Source: an uncultured Spirochaetaceae bacterium | GTDB taxonomy: Bacteria > Spirochaetota > Spirochaetia > Sphaerochaetales > Sphaerochaetaceae | DNA length: 60,236 bases | Assembly (NCBI GenBank): GCA_944392985.1 | Contig: CALXYL010000013.1 | Location: 1 to 60,236 of the forward strand | Direction: 5' to 3' | Shown: positions 14,526 through 59,683 of the stretch, piece by piece | Layout of the letters: each line of letters opens with the position of its first letter | Position numbering within the stretch: the first letter of the stretch is position 1 | Made by a program: the position numbers and the translations under genes | Notes under the pieces: generated by a model | The model's input: only the letters and a program-made list of their open reading frames with translations | What the model was told of the DNA's origin: nothing | Databases searched by the model: none

Positions 14526-17500
14526 ATGGCAGACAAGAAAATGGTTACCATTGATGGAAACACCGCTGCGGCGCACATAGCATACGCCTTCAGTGATGTA
14601 GCCGCTATTTACCCGATTACTCCGTCCTCACCTATGGGCGAGTATGCAGAGCAGTGGTCCTCGACAGGCCGCGAGAATCTCTGGGGCAAGAAAGTAGACA
14701 TCATGGAGATGCAGTCAGAGGCTGGTGCCGCTGGTGCTGTTCATGGTGCTCTTGCCGCAGGTGCCCTGACGACCACATTCACAGCGTCACAGGGTCTTCT
14801 CCTTATGATCCCGAACATGTACAAGATCGCTGGTGAGATGATCCCGACGGTATTCCACGTTTCGGCTAGGTCACTCGCTGCACAGTCGCTTTCGATCTTC
14901 GGTGATCACTCCGATGTCATGGCATGCCGCAACACTGGCTTTGCGATGACATGTGCTTCCAGCATCCAGGAGACGATGGATATGGCTCTTGTTGCTCATC
15001 TCGCGACACTTGAGTCACAGGTTCCGTTCCTTGCTTTCTTCGATGGCTTCAGGACATCCCATGAGATCCAGAAGGTCGAGGAGATCTCCTATAATGACAT
15101 CCGCACGCTTGTCGACGAGAAGTACATCGAGCGCTTCCGCTCACGCGCACAGCGCCCTGAGCACCCGATGACAAAGGTCGCAGCACAGAATGAGGATGTT
15201 TACTTCCAGGGAAGGGAGACCGTCAATCCGTACTATGATGCAGTTCCTGCAATCGTCCAGAAGTACATGGACAAGGTTGCGGCCCTCACAGGAAGGCAGT
15301 ATCACCTCTTCGACTATGTCGGCGCACCTGATGCAACGGATGTCATCGTCATCATGGGTTCAGCTGCTGATACATTCGAGTGGGTTGTTGATTACCTCAA
15401 CAAGAAGGGCGGCAAGGTCGGACTTGTGAAGGTCAGGCTCTACAGGCCGTTCTCCGCTTCCGCATTCGTTTCCTGCATCCCGGCATCTGCAAAGAGGATC
15501 GCAGTCATGGATAGGACGAAGGAGCCAGGTGCTCTTGGTGAGCCTCTCTATGAGGATGTCGTCACAGCGCTTGCACAGCAGGGCAGGACAGGAATGAAGG
15601 TCATCGGAGGCCGCTATGGTCTTTCCTCGAAGGACTTCACTCCGACCCATGCGAAGTCAGTATTCGACTTCCTTGCACGCGACGATGCATGGCATGATTT
15701 CACAATCGGTATCAATGACGATGTGACCGGCCGCTCGATCCCTGTCAGCGACAAGATCGACGTTACACCGGAAGGCGTTGTCTCCTGCATGTTCTGGGGC
15801 CTTGGTTCCGATGGTACTGTCGGTGCTAACAAGAACTCCATCAAGATCATCGGCGACAACACCGATATGAACGCTCAGGCATACTTCGCATATGACTCGA
15901 AGAAGTCCGGCGGTATCACGATCTCCCACCTCAGGTTCGGAAAGGGCAAGCTCGACATGCCATGGCTGATTGACCATGCTGACTTCGTCGCATGCCATAA
16001 CCCGGCTTATATCGGACGCTATGATATGCTTTCCGCTCTCAAGGATGGTGGCGTATTCCTTCTCAACAGCCAGATTCCTTCTGACGAGGTGTTCGAGCAT
16101 CTTACGAAGGATATGCAGGAGCAGATCATCAACAAGCATATCCACTTCTACAACATCGATGCTCTCGACATTGCAAGGAGCGTTGGCCTTGGCTCGAGGA
16201 TCAACACCGTCATGCAGGCTGCGTTCTTCAAGATCGCGAATGTCCTTCCTGAGACAGAGGCAATCGAGCTGATCAAGAAGTACATCAAGAAGACGTTCCT
16301 CAAGAAGGGCGAGGAAGTTGTCAACAAGAACTGGGCAGCAGTCGATGGAGCTTCCGCAGCTCTCGTCGAGGTCAAGGTTCCGGCATCCATCACGAAGAGC
16401 TATGAGCCGAAGAGGCTTATCCCGGATGATGCAGACGATTTCACGAAGAACGTCATTGAGCGCATCATGCACCTCCAGGGCAATGACATTCCTGTTTCCC
16501 AGATGTCCTATGACGGCAAGCTGCCTACAGGAACGGCAAAGCTGGAGAAGAGAGGCGTTGCTGCATATGTTCCTCACTGGGACAGCACGAAGTGTATCCA
16601 GTGCAACCAGTGTGTCCAGTCCTGTCCGCATGCAGCGATCCGCGCTAAGCAGATCACTCCTGAGGATATGGAGAAGGCTCCTGCGACATTCCATGCGATC
16701 AAGTCGAATACGAAGAACGACAGGAACCTCCTTTTCAAGATCCAGGTCTATACAGAGGACTGCCAGGGATGTGGCGTCTGCGTAGAGGCATGCCCGGCTA
16801 AGGAGAAGGCTCTTGAGCTCAAGCCGATTGCTGAGGAGAGGGCTAATGGTGAGATCGAGAACTGCACGTTCTTCGAGGGCCTCACATATGACAACCTCGA
16901 CGGTCTCAACATGGGAACTGTCAAGGGTCTCCAGTTCAAGCAGCCGCTTTTCGAGTTCTCGGGCGCCTGTGCTGGCTGTGGTGAGACACCGTATGTGAAG
17001 ATGCTCAGCCAGATCTGCGGAGAGAGGGCAGTCATCGCAAATGCAACAGGATGCTCCTCGATCTACTCTGGAACGTTCCCGACCATTCCTTACACGAAGA
17101 GGGCTGATGGCCGTGGACCGGCTTGGGGCAACTCGCTCTTCGAGGATAATGCAGAGTATGGACTCGGTATGCGCCTCGCTGTCGATTCCAACAGGACGCT
17201 TCTCAGGATGAAGTGCGATGAGCTCATCGCAGCAGGATGCTCCGATGCTCTCAAGGCAGCTATCGAGAAGTGCTACTCACTCTGGGAGGACACAACAGAG
17301 GCTTCGATCACAGCTCAGAAGGAAGTACAGGCTGTGCTTGCTTCCGAGAAGGCGAAGGATGCAGCTTCCCAGGCTCTCCTCGACAAGATCGTTGAGCTGC
17401 AGGATTACTTCTCTGAGAAGGATGTCATCATCATCGGTGGTGATGGATGGGCTTATGATATCGGATTCGGCGGTGTTGACCACGTCGTTGCTTCCGGCAA

Positions 17501-22565: not shown

Positions 22566-23569
22566 TGGAAGAAAAGAAGGAAGTGCTGCTTGAGGTGGAG
22601 AACCTCAAGGTATATTACCCCGTCAAGGCCAATACCATCTTCTCAAGAAAGGAGTATGTGAAGGCTGTCGACGGCATCTCCTTCCGTGTCTACAAGAAGG
22701 AGGCTTTCGGAATCGTCGGCGAGTCCGGCTGTGGAAAGTCAACGACGGGCCACACTATAGTCGGCCTTCTCCGCCCGACGGAGGGGGACATCAAGCTCCA
22801 CGGTGAGACGATCCTCGATGAGAAGAAGCGCTACAGCAAGGAAATGGCGAAGAAGATCCAGATCATCTTCCAGGATCCGTATTCGTCCCTTGATCCGCGT
22901 TTCACTGTCGGCCGATGCATCAGGGAGCCTCTTGATGAGCATAAGATCGGAACGAAGGAGGAGAGGCAGAAGCTCGTAGAGCGCCTTATGACAGAAGTCG
23001 GTCTCAACAGCGATCAGATCACCCGCTATCCTCATGAGTTCTCAGGCGGTCAGCGCCAGAGGATCGGGATTGCGAGAGCGCTGACGCTCAGCCCTGAGCT
23101 GATCATCTGCGACGAGCCTGTTTCCGCTCTGGATGTATCGATCCAGGCCCAGATACTGAACCTGATGCAGGAACTGAAGGAGAAGAGGGGTCTGACATAC
23201 ATATTCATCTCCCACAACCTCAGTGTCGTGCACCATCTCTGCGATAGGATCGCCGTTATGTATCTTGGGCATATCGTTGAGATCACATCAAAGGATGAGC
23301 TTTTCGAGAATGCGCTGCATCCATATACGAAGGCCCTGCTCAGCGCGATTCCCGTACCTGATCCTGAGATGAAGACGATGCAGGCCGAGATCCAGGGAGA
23401 TGTTCCATCGCCGCGGCATCCACCAGCAGGCTGCTGCTTCCACACCAGGTGTCCCTTCGCTACGAAGGAATGCTCTGAGGTGGTGCCGGAGCTTGTCGAG
23501 ATCTCGCCGGATCATTTCGTGGCATGTCATCTTGTAAAGAAAAACCAAGGAAAAAGGAGAAGAAGATGA
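22562..23569 (+). CDS. dppF: Peptide ABC transporter ATPase (DppF/OppF)
   Basis: 335 residues. Walker A GESGCGKSTTG, Q-loop FQDPYSSLDPRF, signature FSGGQRQRI, Walker B LIICDEPVSALD and H-loop ISHN are intact, with the C-terminal CCFHTRCPFATKEC motif. It acts as a heterodimer with DppD. The start of the first binding-protein gene overlaps its last four bases. Confidence 0.95.
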   Translation: MMEEKKEVLLEVENLKVYYPVKANTIFSRKEYVKAVDGISFRVYKKEAFGIVGESGCGKSTTGHTIVGLLRPTEGDIKLHGETILDEKKRYSKEMAKKIQIIFQDPYSSLDPRFTVGRCIREPLDEHKIGTKEERQKLVERLMTEVGLNSDQITRYPHEFSGGQRQRIGIARALTLSPELIICDEPVSALDVSIQAQILNLMQELKEKRGLTYIFISHNLSVVHHLCDRIAVMYLGHIVEITSKDELFENALHPYTKALLSAIPVPDPEMKTMQAEIQGDVPSPRHPPAGCCFHTRCPFATKECSEVVPELVEISPDHFVACHLVKKNQGKRRRR

Positions 23570-26894: not shown

Positions 26895-28472
26895 ATGAGG
26901 AGAACCGCTATAGTGCTGCTGCTTGCAGCAATCGCTGCAATCTCTGCTTTCGCAGGCGGAGGGAAGGAAGAGGTGGGTTCAGCGCCTCTTCCGGAGTTCA
27001 AGGACACGATCACGATCGCAACCGGCAGTGACCAGAACTACATGGATGGCCAGATGAACAACACCAACGATGTCTACCTCCGCGCTGTGTATTCACAGCT
27101 CGTGAGGAGGGCTCTCGATGGAAGCATCGAGGGGGACCTTGCTGAGAGCTGGTCAGTCGGAGAGGATGGTGTGACCTGGACATTCAACCTCCGCCATGGA
27201 GTGAAGTTCCACAACGGCAAGGAACTCACCTCAGCTGATGTCGTTGCATCATACGACAGGCTCCTGAACAATACAGCCGTAAGGTACAATTCCTATGCGA
27301 AGGGATACATCAAGGAAGTCTATGCCGTTGATGACTACACAGTCTGCATCGTCACCACGGAGCAGATCGCGAGCATGCTTGCGAACCTCACACACCGCTC
27401 CAACCTGATCATGGATGCTGACTACATCGAGAAGTATGGAATGGATCTCGGTCTCACTGCGGAGTCAGTGAACGGAACAGGTCCGTACCGCCTGACATAC
27501 TGGGATAGGGGACAGGAGATGGTACTTGAATCATTCGAGGACTATTTCCGCGGTGAGGTGCCTACGAAGAAGATCGATATCCTCATCGTCTCCGATGCGA
27601 ACGCACGTCTTTTCGCGATTGAGACCGGACAGGTCGACATCTCTACTGTCAACACATCGGAGATCCCTCGCCTCCAGGAGACACCGGGCATCCAGGTGAA
27701 GATGTATGAGGGCATCGGATCACATGGCCTGCAGTTCAACTGCGGCAATGAGTATATGAAGGATCCGCGCGTCCGCCAGGCGATCTCCTACGCGATCGAC
27801 CGCCAGCTCATCATCGACACGCTCTATGCGTCAATCGGAGAGACGGTCTGCACTGCTCCCGTCAATCCGAATGTCTGGGGCTACCATGACTTCGGAGTGA
27901 TCCAGCAGGATCAGGAGAAGGCCAGACAGCTCCTTACTGAAGCCGGGTACCCCGACGGATTCGAGATCAGCATCATGGTTGAGCCTAGCTACAACCGTTC
28001 AACCGAGACCTGCGAGATGATTGTGGCGATGCTCGAGGAGGTCGGAATCCATGCGACGATCGAGGTTGTCGATAACGCTACATTCAAGGGTTCCCGCGGC
28101 AACAGGTCGTATCCGGGAGAGGATTTCCCATGGGCGATGTTCTTCATGGGATTCGGTGCCGGAACCGCTGACTGTGACGAGGGCCTGAGGAGGATCTGGG
28201 AGACATCCCCTGACGGGAACAACAACAATAACTACGGCTGGTACTCCAATGCTGAGGTCGACAGGCTTCTCAATGAGGCGAAGGCCGAGCTCGATGAGGA
28301 AAAGAGGCTTGATCTTTACCGCCAGGCCCAGCAGATCATCTTCCTTGATGATCCTGCCGCGATCTTCACCAACGACAGGTACAATATCTGGACGATGTCC
28401 GATAAGGTCGAGGGCTTCGAGGTGAATGTGAATAATGCAATCTTCTGGGATAACCTGCGCTGCAGGAACTAG
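26895..28472 (+). CDS. Peptide-binding protein, paralog 2
   Basis: 525 residues, signal peptide about 1-19 (AAIAAISAFA-GGGKEE), then the family-5 binding fold with the same blocks as paralog 1 (DLAESWSVGEDGVTWTF; VRQAISYAIDRQLIIDTL). It differs mostly in the ligand-facing stretches around residues 385-420 (SIMVEPSYNRSTE, TFKGSRGNRSYPGEDF), so peptide preference may differ. An AAGGAGGG site precedes the ATG. Confidence 0.93.
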   Translation: MRRTAIVLLLAAIAAISAFAGGGKEEVGSAPLPEFKDTITIATGSDQNYMDGQMNNTNDVYLRAVYSQLVRRALDGSIEGDLAESWSVGEDGVTWTFNLRHGVKFHNGKELTSADVVASYDRLLNNTAVRYNSYAKGYIKEVYAVDDYTVCIVTTEQIASMLANLTHRSNLIMDADYIEKYGMDLGLTAESVNGTGPYRLTYWDRGQEMVLESFEDYFRGEVPTKKIDILIVSDANARLFAIETGQVDISTVNTSEIPRLQETPGIQVKMYEGIGSHGLQFNCGNEYMKDPRVRQAISYAIDRQLIIDTLYASIGETVCTAPVNPNVWGYHDFGVIQQDQEKARQLLTEAGYPDGFEISIMVEPSYNRSTETCEMIVAMLEEVGIHATIEVVDNATFKGSRGNRSYPGEDFPWAMFFMGFGAGTADCDEGLRRIWETSPDGNNNNNYGWYSNAEVDRLLNEAKAELDEEKRLDLYRQAQQIIFLDDPAAIFTNDRYNIWTMSDKVEGFEVNVNNAIFWDNLRCRN

Positions 28473-56378: not shown

Positions 56379-57680
56379 ATGAACATCCTTGCAGAAGAGC
56401 TTAACAGCGTGCTTTCTGATTCAGTTGCCTATGGTTTCCTGTCCTCGATCGGCAGGCGGATGTATTTTCCGAAGGGAATCGTCGCCCAGAGCGATGAGGC
56501 TAAGGAGAAGGCAAAGCGCTACAACGCGACTGTCGGTCTTGCAACGAAGCATGGCGAGCCTTTTTACCTTGAGGATATCTATTCATCATTCAGGGAAGGT
56601 CTCTTCAAGCCATCCCAGATATTCTCGTATGCTCCCGGTGGTGGTGATAAGACGCTGCGTTCCCTTTGGAAGGAGGCGATGCTGAGGAAGAATCCTGCGC
56701 TAAGCGGGAAGAAGTTCTCTCTTCCTCTTGTTACAGGCGGCCTGACACATGCGATCAGCATGGTTGCCCAGCTCTTCGTGTCAGAGGGAGATGCTGTTGT
56801 CTGCCCGGATCTCTTCTGGGACAACTACGATCTGATCTTCCGCGATCTTATCGGGGCGGAGCCCGTTCTCTTCCCATTCTACGGGAAGGAGGGAGGTTTC
56901 AACATCGATGGGATGAAGGAAGCACTGCTCTCCGTTCCTGGAGATCATGTGAGGATCATCCTCAATTTCCCGAACAACCCAACAGGATACACGCCGAGCC
57001 AGGAGGAGGCGAAGCGCCTTGTCGATGCTGTGGTCAGCGTTGCGGATACAGGCAAGAAGGTGCTTGTCATCTCCGATGATGCCTACTTCGGCCTCTTCTT
57101 CGAGGAGGACACCGAGAAGCAGTCGCTTTTCTCCTATTTCGCCGATGCACATGAGAACATCTTCGCGGTCAAGGGAGACGCGGCAACGAAGGAGGAGATG
57201 GTATGGGGCTTCAGGGTAGGCTTCATAACATATGCTTCAAAGGGCTTCTCGGATGCACATCTTGACGCTCTCACGAAGAAAACGCTTGGGATGATCCGCT
57301 GCACCGTCTCCAACTGCGACAGGCCCGGTCAGAGCCTTATCGTGGAAGCCATGAGGAACGGCAGCAGGTATGAGGCGGACAAGGCTGAGATCTTCAGCGA
57401 GATGAAGAAGCGCTATGAAATCGTCCATAAGGCTGTCAGGAAGCATGATGGCGATAACCTGCTTACTCCTTATGATTTCAATTCAGGCTATTTCATGGCG
57501 TTCGATACCCACGGACGGAGCGCGGAGGAGCTGAGGCTCTATCTGCTGGATAAGTATCAGATCGGTGTCATCAACATCATGGGAGGCACTCTCCGCCTCG
57601 CATACTGCTCTGTGGAGCCGGAAGGGCTGGAAGAGCTTGTTGATACCGTTTACAAGGCGGCGGGGGAGATATGGAGCTGA
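56379..57680 (+). CDS. PLP-dependent aminotransferase, class I/II
   Basis: 433 residues from the ATG at 56379, which has GGAGGAG upstream. Fold-type I features: FPNNPTGYTPS substrate/cofactor loop, the PLP-pyridine Asp in VISDDAYFGLFF, the Schiff-base Lys in ATKEEMVWGFR and C-terminal Arg in TLRLAY. It transfers amino groups between an amino acid and a 2-oxo acid; the donor is not readable. It overlaps the ModE-like gene by 10 nt. Confidence 0.88.
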   Translation: MNILAEELNSVLSDSVAYGFLSSIGRRMYFPKGIVAQSDEAKEKAKRYNATVGLATKHGEPFYLEDIYSSFREGLFKPSQIFSYAPGGGDKTLRSLWKEAMLRKNPALSGKKFSLPLVTGGLTHAISMVAQLFVSEGDAVVCPDLFWDNYDLIFRDLIGAEPVLFPFYGKEGGFNIDGMKEALLSVPGDHVRIILNFPNNPTGYTPSQEEAKRLVDAVVSVADTGKKVLVISDDAYFGLFFEEDTEKQSLFSYFADAHENIFAVKGDAATKEEMVWGFRVGFITYASKGFSDAHLDALTKKTLGMIRCTVSNCDRPGQSLIVEAMRNGSRYEADKAEIFSEMKKRYEIVHKAVRKHDGDNLLTPYDFNSGYFMAFDTHGRSAEELRLYLLDKYQIGVINIMGGTLRLAYCSVEPEGLEELVDTVYKAAGEIWS

Positions 57681-58033
57681 GCACGAAGCTCTATATCCTC
57701 GATGGCGAAGGCCGGAAGTTCATGGGAGCCGGAGTCCTCTGGCTTCTTGAACGTGTCGAGGAGACGGGCTCCCTGCTCTCTGCCAGCCGCAGCATGGGAC
57801 TTTCCTATACGAAGGCAAGGGCGATGCTTGATATGCTTGAGGCGAATCTCGGGCGTCCTGTGCTGGATAGGAAGAAGGGTGGAGCGGAACGCTCAGGTGC
57901 TTCGCTTACACCATTTGCAAGGAAGTATATTTCCCTATACAGGGAATTCCAGACGGAAGCAAAGGCGGATGCCGAACGCCGGTTTGAGGCTTTCTCAGCA
58001 TCTGTTGATAAGCTCATGGAGGAAGGGATATGA
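57671..58033 (+). CDS. ModE-like winged-helix regulator (DNA-binding domain only)
   Basis: 120 residues. The arrangement (VLWLLERVEETGSLLSASR, then MGLSYTKARAMLDMLEANLG and DRKKGGAERSGASLTPF) is that of the ModE N-terminal winged helix. The molybdate-binding TOBE domains are absent, so it is not a classical molybdate sensor. It lies between the aminotransferase and pfkA with overlaps on both sides, so it is cotranscribed with them. Confidence 0.82.
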   Translation: MELSTKLYILDGEGRKFMGAGVLWLLERVEETGSLLSASRSMGLSYTKARAMLDMLEANLGRPVLDRKKGGAERSGASLTPFARKYISLYREFQTEAKADAERRFEAFSASVDKLMEEGI

Positions 58034-59364
58034 GCACGAAGGAACAGTACGATTTCACGATTGAAACGCTAGGTCCGGCGAAACTCAATTCGCCGATCAG
58101 GATGTCCAAGCGCGGAGGCGATGGGCTTGCCGATTACGTCCGTGATTCAGAGAGGATCCTCTTCTCTATCGAGGCAGAGGAAGTTGATGGCAAATCGGAG
58201 ATACTCCATTCCGATACGCTTGAGATCGCAGGGCCAAGGGAGAAGATCTACTTCAATCCTGCCCATGTCCATGCCGCGATCTGTACATGCGGCGGCCTCT
58301 GCCCCGGACTTAACAATGTCATCAGATCCGTTGTGCGCTGCTTCTGGTATCGCTATGGCGTCAGGAGGATCTCCGGTATCCAGTATGGCTACCTTGGCCT
58401 TCTTGAGAACTCACCATGGCCGGTCATCCCACTCGATCCTGATGTTGTCGATGATATCCTTGAAAAGGGTGGTACGATCCTCGGTTCGGCCCGTGGCGGT
58501 GGAAAGCAGGTTGAGGAGATCGTTGATTCACTGGAGAGGATGAATATCAACATACTCATCACCATCGGTGGCGACGGAACCCTCCGCGGTACCCAGGATA
58601 TCGGAGAGGAGATCAAGAGGCGCGGTCTCAAGATCGCTGTTGTAGGCGTCCCAAAGACCATCGACAATGATCTTTCCTTCATCGATGCTTCCTTCGGCTT
58701 TGATACAGCTGTAGCGCAGGTCGTGCCTGTTATCAGGGGCGCTCACGCAGAAGCGACCGGTGCCATAAATGGCATTGGACTGGTGAAGGTCATGGGCAGG
58801 GAGTCTGGATTCATTGCCGCAAATGCATCCCTTGCACAGTCGGACGTCAACTTCTGTCTCATTCCTGAATCCCCATTCGATCTTGAAGGGCCGAATGGAC
58901 TTCTTGAGAACGTGAAGAGGCGCCTTCTTGAAAGAGGCCATGCTGTCATCCTCATCGCAGAGGGTGCTGGCCAGGAGTTCCTGCCGCAGACAGGGGAGAC
59001 GGATGCTTCCGGCAACGTCAAGTTCCACGATATCGGCATATTCCTGAAGAACGCTATGAAGGAGTATTTCGCGGAGCAGGGAATCGCTACGACGATCAAG
59101 TACATCGATCCATCGTACATCATCCGTTCCGCCCCGGCAGACAGCTATGATTCGATCTACTGCGCCCGTATCGGAGCTCACGCGGTGCACGCGGCGATGG
59201 CCGGCAAGACACAGTGCATCGCCTCGCGCGTCAACAACCAGTTTGTCTATGTTCCGATCAAGGTCGCGGTCTCAAAGCGCAGCCATGTGGACATCGAGGG
59301 ATCCCTCTGGAGGGATGTCCTTGAGAACACAAGGCAGCCGTTCTCGATGAAGAACTCCGACTGA
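58030..59364 (+). CDS. pfkA: 6-phosphofructokinase, long/trypanosome-like clade
   Basis: 444 residues. It phosphorylates fructose 6-phosphate to the 1,6-bisphosphate. Diagnostic sites: GGDGTLRG in the phosphoryl-donor site (Gly where PPi enzymes have Asp) and PKTIDNDL with Lys rather than the Gly of E. coli. The Gly plus Lys combination is found in the ATP-dependent long PFKs of trypanosome/Treponema type, so ATP is the more likely donor. Other motifs are EVMGRESGF-equivalent KVMGRESGFIA and SYIIRS. It overlaps the ModE-like gene by 4 nt and is followed by a terminator. Confidence 0.92.
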   Translation: MSTKEQYDFTIETLGPAKLNSPIRMSKRGGDGLADYVRDSERILFSIEAEEVDGKSEILHSDTLEIAGPREKIYFNPAHVHAAICTCGGLCPGLNNVIRSVVRCFWYRYGVRRISGIQYGYLGLLENSPWPVIPLDPDVVDDILEKGGTILGSARGGGKQVEEIVDSLERMNINILITIGGDGTLRGTQDIGEEIKRRGLKIAVVGVPKTIDNDLSFIDASFGFDTAVAQVVPVIRGAHAEATGAINGIGLVKVMGRESGFIAANASLAQSDVNFCLIPESPFDLEGPNGLLENVKRRLLERGHAVILIAEGAGQEFLPQTGETDASGNVKFHDIGIFLKNAMKEYFAEQGIATTIKYIDPSYIIRSAPADSYDSIYCARIGAHAVHAAMAGKTQCIASRVNNQFVYVPIKVAVSKRSHVDIEGSLWRDVLENTRQPFSMKNSD

Positions 59365-59382: not shown

Positions 59383-59413
59383 AAGCCCGATGCTCCGGTG
59401 TCGGGCTTTTCTT
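59383..59413 (+). terminator. Terminator after pfkA
   Basis: An 8-bp stem (AAGCCCGA, 59383-59390, with 59401-59408) and 10-nt loop are followed by TTCTTC. Confidence 0.8.
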
Positions 59414-59597
59414 CTCCGCCGACAGGCAGAGAGAACATCAAGTGTCAGAATAGACTGTGTTTGTTACTTCATCTGACGTATATAATTGGCTCTGATAAAA
59501 CTGACACCATGCCGGAAAATGCAACAATGTTTCAAAATTTTTGGAAATTTTCTGAAAACCTCTTTTCATACTTTGGAGAACTCGCTATATTATGGCC
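59414..59597 (+). promoter_or_regulatory. Intergenic promoter region ahead of the small RNA
   Basis: No credible gene. Two promoters are seen: TGTTTG (59458-59463), 17 nt, TATAAT (59481-59486), flanked by an inverted repeat GTGTCAG (59442-59448) and CTGACAC (59501-59507); and TTTTCA (59563-59568), 17 nt, TATATT (59586-59591). The second would start transcription near 59598, at the small RNA. Confidence 0.55.
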
Positions 59598-59683
59598 AGA
59601 AAGTGGAAGCAGAACTTCCATTCTAACCTCCTTTTGTTCCCCATGTGCGGTTTACCTCCTTTTGTCCGCAATGGGGTTTTTTT
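59598..59683 (+). ncRNA. Candidate small RNA with two anti-Shine-Dalgarno motifs
   Basis: A transcript of about 85 nt is framed by a promoter (-10 at 59586-59591) and a terminator. It has hairpin 1 (59602-59609 with 59615-59622), a single-stranded ACCUCCUUUUGU (59626-59637), and a terminator stem (59639-59650 with 59666-59676, one bulged G) followed by seven U. The terminator loop holds an exact second copy of ACCUCCUUUUGU (59654-59665). This motif matches the 16S rRNA 3-prime tail (ACCUCCUUU), so the RNA could base-pair with ribosome binding sites of many mRNAs. No known sRNA family is recognised, and expression is unproven. Confidence 0.6.

Follow-up and report, generated by a model that had tools for sequence, protein, structure and literature searches.

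The stretch of DNA analysed here (the window, 60,236 nucleotides from an uncultured Spirochaetaceae bacterium) contains the gene of a small RNA (sRNA) of about 86 nt, at positions 59598–59683 of the + strand. We consider it likely that this RNA acts in trans, and that it carries two redundant anti-Shine-Dalgarno (anti-SD) seeds with which it represses a set of mRNAs independently of Hfq. From the sequence we infer that the targeting of ribosome-binding sites is its best-supported function, and the RNA probably switches off mRNAs by covering the sites where ribosomes dock. The two seeds would be displayed in a single-stranded linker and in the loop of the terminator hairpin, and would pair with purine-rich Shine-Dalgarno sequences (SDs) of the type (C)AAAAGGAGG(U). 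Such pairing would block binding of the 30S subunit and lower the translation of the mRNAs concerned, without Hfq.

A preliminary description had placed a promoter, a short structured transcript and a terminator between pfkA and an insertion sequence (IS), and this setting is confirmed. The gene for pfkA lies upstream at 58030–59364 on the + strand (family PF00365, tested on the copy of a relative), and a second conserved neighbour, encoding a LysR-type or ModE-like helix-turn-helix (HTH) protein (PF00126), at 57671–58033 on the same strand. An IS of ISL3 type (Zn_ribbon_ISL3) starts immediately 3' of the U-run, at about 59684. As read by eye in the sequence, pfkA appears to have its own terminator at about 59386–59410, and the sRNA gene therefore looks like a separate transcription unit. 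Its sigma70-like promoter, TTTTCA-N17-TATATT, is present as described earlier at 59563–59591, with a −35-like TTTTCA at 59563–59568, a spacer of 17 nt and a −10-like TATATT at 59586–59591, and it is kept in same-genus relatives as TTTTCA/TTTACA-N17-TATATT/TATAGT. The transcript is predicted to start near 59598 with a 5' hairpin (59598–59624). This is followed by the first anti-SD motif, ACCUCCUUUUGU, at 59626–59637, which is an unpaired linker in the predicted fold, and by a terminator hairpin of 11 bp (59639–59676), which is indicated by both fold and covariation. The second copy of ACCUCCUUUUGU lies in the loop of the terminator, at 59654–59665. A run of seven U (59677–59683), found throughout the family alignment, marks the 3' end of the RNA.

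None of the small open reading frames (ORFs) across the region shows any sign of conservation, and the ATG within the stem is lost in relatives. The reverse complement of the gene contains ACAAAAGGAGGU twice, and could in principle be the functional transcript, an RNA with GGAGG loops that binds CsrA or serves as ribosome sites. We give this almost no credence: the U-run, the promoter and the conservation of the promoter all indicate the + strand, and there is no sign of a conserved minus-strand ORF there.

The position of the IS is worth recording. The ISL3-type element lies directly after a seven-T run at all four places where it was seen in the window genome, and in three of the four cases (this sRNA, L003 and L004) the T-run forms the 3' end of a terminator with a strong hairpin (−19 to −20 kcal/mol at L003 and L004). 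The element may target transcription terminators.

The predicted fold of 59598–59683 consists of two hairpins, with both motifs unpaired, and has an energy of −25.3 kcal/mol (z = −3.2; none of 200 shuffles was as stable), in keeping with the structured RNA and terminator proposed earlier. The repeated 12-mer, ACCTCCTTTTGT, is indeed identical at the two motif positions, and ACCTCCTTT occurs in the 60 kb only at these two positions and at one other + strand site, at 16726. Both copies had been said to lie in unpaired positions, and the predictions bear this out among relatives: averaged over 64 related sequences, motif 1 has an unpaired probability of 0.78 and motif 2 one of 0.95, compared with 0.55 for the whole RNA. 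Motif 1 is degenerate in several distant families, in which the loop motif alone is kept, and loop motif 2 is the most widely kept element of the sRNA.

The two motifs and the stems have evolved very differently. In 63 distinct family sequences motif 1, CCTCCTTTTGTT, is nearly invariant; the terminator loop, UUUACCUCCUUUU, is also nearly invariant and the linker reads ACCUCCUUUUGUU, while the stem is made of many different pairs. Both CCUCCUUU motifs are thus almost fixed, while the terminator stem changes by compensatory substitutions. The 5' hairpin has likewise changed in sequence and is still predicted as a hairpin (GGAAG..CTTCC, AGGGAA..TCCTGG, GTGGA..TCCAC, AGGAAACAAAGAGTTTCC). An alignment of 66 sequences, reaching other families, has double-sided changes at all 11 stem pairs, with 131 covariation cells against 32.5 ± 5.3 in shuffles (0/500), though this alignment was fitted to the structure and is to that extent biased in favour of covariation. 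The signal collapses in slid controls of the same alignment, and an alignment of 14 sequences made by sequence alone agrees, with 17 covarying cells against 6.0. The preliminary description had regarded loss of the CCUCC loops in relatives as evidence against it; the opposite is seen, in that the loops are the most conserved part class-wide and the stems vary with compensation. For the same reasons it is extremely unlikely that the element is merely the terminator of a conserved locus, with a loop that has no regulatory role. A terminator hairpin and U-run are clearly present, but terminator loops normally vary freely, whereas in this RNA it is the stem that varies beneath a constant loop, and the motif has been retained a second time outside the hairpin. 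Two related genomes (L212 and L214) have an additional hairpin immediately upstream of the terminator, with ACCUCCUUU in the loop.

The gene is widely distributed. When 100 relatives were searched at the DNA level, almost every genome of the same genus proved to have it, and with a covariance model (R2) 123 of the 139 family genomes are positive, nearly all of them with a single copy. A pattern scan of named genomes located it in Sphaerochaeta, Bullifex, Ornithospirochaeta, Pleomorphochaeta, Brucepastera and many other Spirochaetales. A contig of the cultured S. halotolerans (L138) is among those with the gene. With a model that includes distant members (R3), 219 of 395 genomes of the class are positive at E ≤ 0.01, where about 4 chance matches would be expected in 395 if the rough E-values hold. 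The covariance search proposed as a check thus recovers the RNA in both family and class, and by sequence comparison the sRNA is traceable across the class Spirochaetia. Among 19 control genomes outside the group, which came in through loci that match the scan pattern by chance and are mostly of other phyla by name, there was one match below 0.01 (E 0.003) and none below 0.001. Three genomes of 1.0–1.2 Mb (G231, G077 and G099) gave no significant match to the sRNA. Six genomes from distant families (G096, G084, G496, G561, G562 and G567) have three to five model matches each, which suggests that the sRNA has multiplied in some of these families. Taken together, the presence in 123 of 139 genomes, the compensated stem and the near-fixed motifs mark the locus out as a real sRNA gene.

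Gene order is also partly conserved. Within the family, pfkA is upstream on the same strand at 58 of 110 loci, and the LysR/ModE-like HTH gene at 34 of 110. In three other families (L260–L262) pfkA is again upstream, and in L260 and L261 the glucose-6-phosphate isomerase gene follows the sRNA (PF00342 for the copy of L261). Brucepastera (L083), L258 and L259 have a different upstream neighbour, which is common to all three. This synteny supports common descent of the sRNA gene across families.

Since pfkA immediately precedes the sRNA gene, in the same orientation, in many lineages, the RNA might be a processed 3' fragment of the pfkA transcript, either an sRNA or a cis element, rather than the product of an independent gene. 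This is very unlikely: pfkA has an apparent terminator of its own and the sRNA its own promoter, the sRNA persists where pfkA is not its neighbour (for example L065, L079 and L258), and distant copies have a different type of promoter right upstream.

On the other side of the gene, at about 15 loci of the window's genus (L015, L092, L127, L143 and L166 among them), the next gene, some 160–180 nt downstream, comes from a single cluster, and the member tested encodes an integrase of phage type (PF00589). Integration may therefore take place on the 3' side of the sRNA gene. A search for an attachment-site repeat found no second copy of the terminator fragment within the integrase-adjoining loci.

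The promoters of the distant copies are of a different kind. The pattern GT[A/T]AC-N16..18-GTT[T/A], typically TGTAAC-N17-GTTT, occurs no more than 130 nt upstream of 25 of 42 sRNA copies outside the family, of which some are near-duplicates, so that the independent cases are fewer. Its background frequency is 0.005 per 130 nt, and it is found at 0 of 90 loci in the window's family; in the window's genus the sigma70-like promoter stands where the distant copies have the TGTAAC type. The consensus for ECF16 promoters is (T/C)GTAAC-N17-CGAA (PMC8315932), which resembles the distant sRNA promoters in the −35 box and the spacing but differs in the −10 element. The EcfF promoter also has a GTAAC element (PMC3420878), resembling the same −35 box. 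Judged from this pattern, the distant copies seem to depend on an ECF-type sigma factor, and hence to respond to stress, in many Spirochaetia outside the Sphaerochaetaceae, while in the window's own genus, within the Sphaerochaetaceae, the sigma70-like promoter would drive the sRNA instead.

The match to 16S rRNA was measured against the 16S tail of relatives, GGATCACCTCCTTTCTGA, as the 16S gene of the window genome is truncated. The claim that the motif mimics the 3' end of 16S rRNA holds for 9 nt (ACCUCCUUU) but not beyond, where the sRNA has UGU and 16S has CUGA. Because the sRNA copies ACCUCCUUU and then departs from 16S, its perfect partner is an SD of the type ACAAAAGGAGGU.

The likeness to 16S raises the question of whether mRNAs are involved at all. 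The sRNA could be a decoy of the 16S 3' end that binds and titrates a protein, or a 30S factor, with specificity for ACCUCCUUU; its effect would then be on the assembly of ribosomes or on initiation, not on individual mRNAs. It would fit such a role that the motif itself is conserved near-strictly, in two copies with 9 nt identical to the 16S tail, and that no conserved target was found. We nevertheless consider it unlikely. In 16S, ACCUCC is preceded by GAUC, which is part of what Era recognises. This GAUC is absent from the sRNA, which has UCUA, UUU or AAUU there, and the sRNA keeps UUUUGU where 16S has UUUCUGA. In addition, the similar motifs of LhrC, csRNAs and alpha-r14 act by pairing.

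Pairing with SDs, the reading that we prefer, would have to proceed without a recognisable Hfq: this protein (PF17209) was found in 0 of 60 genomes, compared with 5 of 14 control genomes, though a very divergent Hfq could have been missed. In the 1.96 Mb of the window genome AAAAGGAGGT occurs 11 times, two of these being the sRNA gene itself. Six of the other nine sites are at SD spacing before a possible start, and five of the six precede ORFs of at least 62 aa. Four of these ORFs encode a secreted protein of barrel-like type, a dipeptide-type ABC permease (PF00528), a protein resembling GlcNAc-2-epimerase (PF07221) and a putative rhomboid; the fifth is 62 aa long. Strong predicted partners within the window include family-5 solute-binding proteins (PF00496 for the gene at 26895). 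Among the candidate targets in the window genome are a barrel-like protein of the outer membrane, the dipeptide-type permease and solute-binding proteins of ABC systems, although the enrichment of transport genes may only reflect the strong SDs of such genes. The window has three near-identical family-5 solute-binding protein genes between 23566 and 30060 (at 23566, 26895 and 28488), with a peptide ABC transporter ATPase-like gene nearby (22565).

Among SDs of the GGAGG type AAAAGGAGG is rare (4 of 145), and SD statistics over 433 genes show no obvious depletion or excess of it. By predicted duplex energy the sRNA binds the SDs of the window on average no better than the 16S tail does. The full 11-mer complement, CAAAAGGAGGT, has 0–4 non-self sites per genome in ten relatives, and these few sites share no gene, so that no target common to the relatives was found. 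As CAAAAGGAGGT is nearly confined to the sRNA gene, shorter pairing must be assumed, and no conserved regulon is apparent. The rarity of the complement implies one of two things: the sRNA acts broadly through shorter pairing, or it selects SDs that are unusually rich in A. Relative G058 has a single non-self site for the full-length complement (locus L245), and this falls within the SD before the gene of a ribosome hibernation-type protein (PF02482), a possible target.

A bolder reading, which we regard as rather doubtful, is that the sRNA is a class-wide, single-copy general brake on translation, controlled by a stress sigma factor, which in spirochaetes without Hfq contends with the 16S tail for the SDs of numerous mRNAs, and that the Sphaerochaetaceae have placed it under a housekeeping promoter beside pfkA, coupling translation to glycolysis. 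In some lineages the sRNA gene sits between pfkA and pgi.

The interest of the system is that one sRNA, spread through the Spirochaetia in hosts with no recognisable Hfq, has kept invariant seeds while its promoter was swapped during evolution. It provides a ready test of how an sRNA acts without Hfq, and bears on why RNAs with anti-SD loops arise repeatedly in distant phyla, and on how targets are chosen with a seed that is in essence the tail of the ribosome itself.

Rfam 15 has no match at gathering score in the window, and none in the loci of ten relatives besides a tRNA. The best of the weak matches, LhrC (RF00616), was rejected at 25.7 bits against a cut-off of 110. Searches of the open-access literature on spirochaete sRNAs yielded mainly studies of Borrelia and Leptospira, and nothing that could be identified with this RNA. 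The closest parallel in design, though not in descent, is with the alpha-r14 or 'cuckoo' RNAs of Rhizobiales (NfeR1, SmelA075, SmelA099), which have ultraconserved anti-SD loops on diverging stems, with targets that include ABC transporters and ntrB (PMC10746234, PMC3927594). The invariant anti-SD loops, diverging stems and redundant seeds are shared, but those RNAs carry their own motif, CCUCCUCCC, in every loop of their three or four hairpins, whereas the spirochaete sRNA displays ACCUCCUUUU(GU) once in a linker and once in the loop of its terminator, and its hosts have no recognisable Hfq; it is therefore not a member of that family. The layout in L212 and L214, with two consecutive ACCUCCUUU-loop hairpins, is nearer to that of the cuckoo RNAs than is the window's version. 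LhrC of Listeria and the csRNAs of Streptococcus have redundant CU-rich motifs, placed in single-stranded parts and in loops, that of the terminator among them, and in csRNAs CCUCCU is implicated in blocking ribosome sites (PMC4691137); they differ in motif (UCCC), copy number and phylum. RepG of Helicobacter pylori uses the C/U-rich loop of its terminator for direct pairing with the leader of its target (PMC8295292). The spirochaete RNA would pair through its terminator loop in a similar way, but RepG recognises a variable G-repeat rather than SDs, and is without a second motif of this kind. The putative control by a stress sigma factor would have a parallel in the alternative (stress) sigma factors that govern CcsR1–4 of Rhodobacter sphaeroides, a set of homologous sRNAs (PMC8307010); these four are processed from a transcript common with ccaF1, whereas the spirochaete sRNA is usually in one copy with its own promoter. 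With PF17209 found in none of the 60 genomes the RNA stands apart from the Hfq-dependent sRNAs, and it has the feature general to anti-SD sRNAs, a conserved and predicted-unpaired sequence complementary to SDs. We judge it to be a new family of sRNAs whose functional kind is already known.
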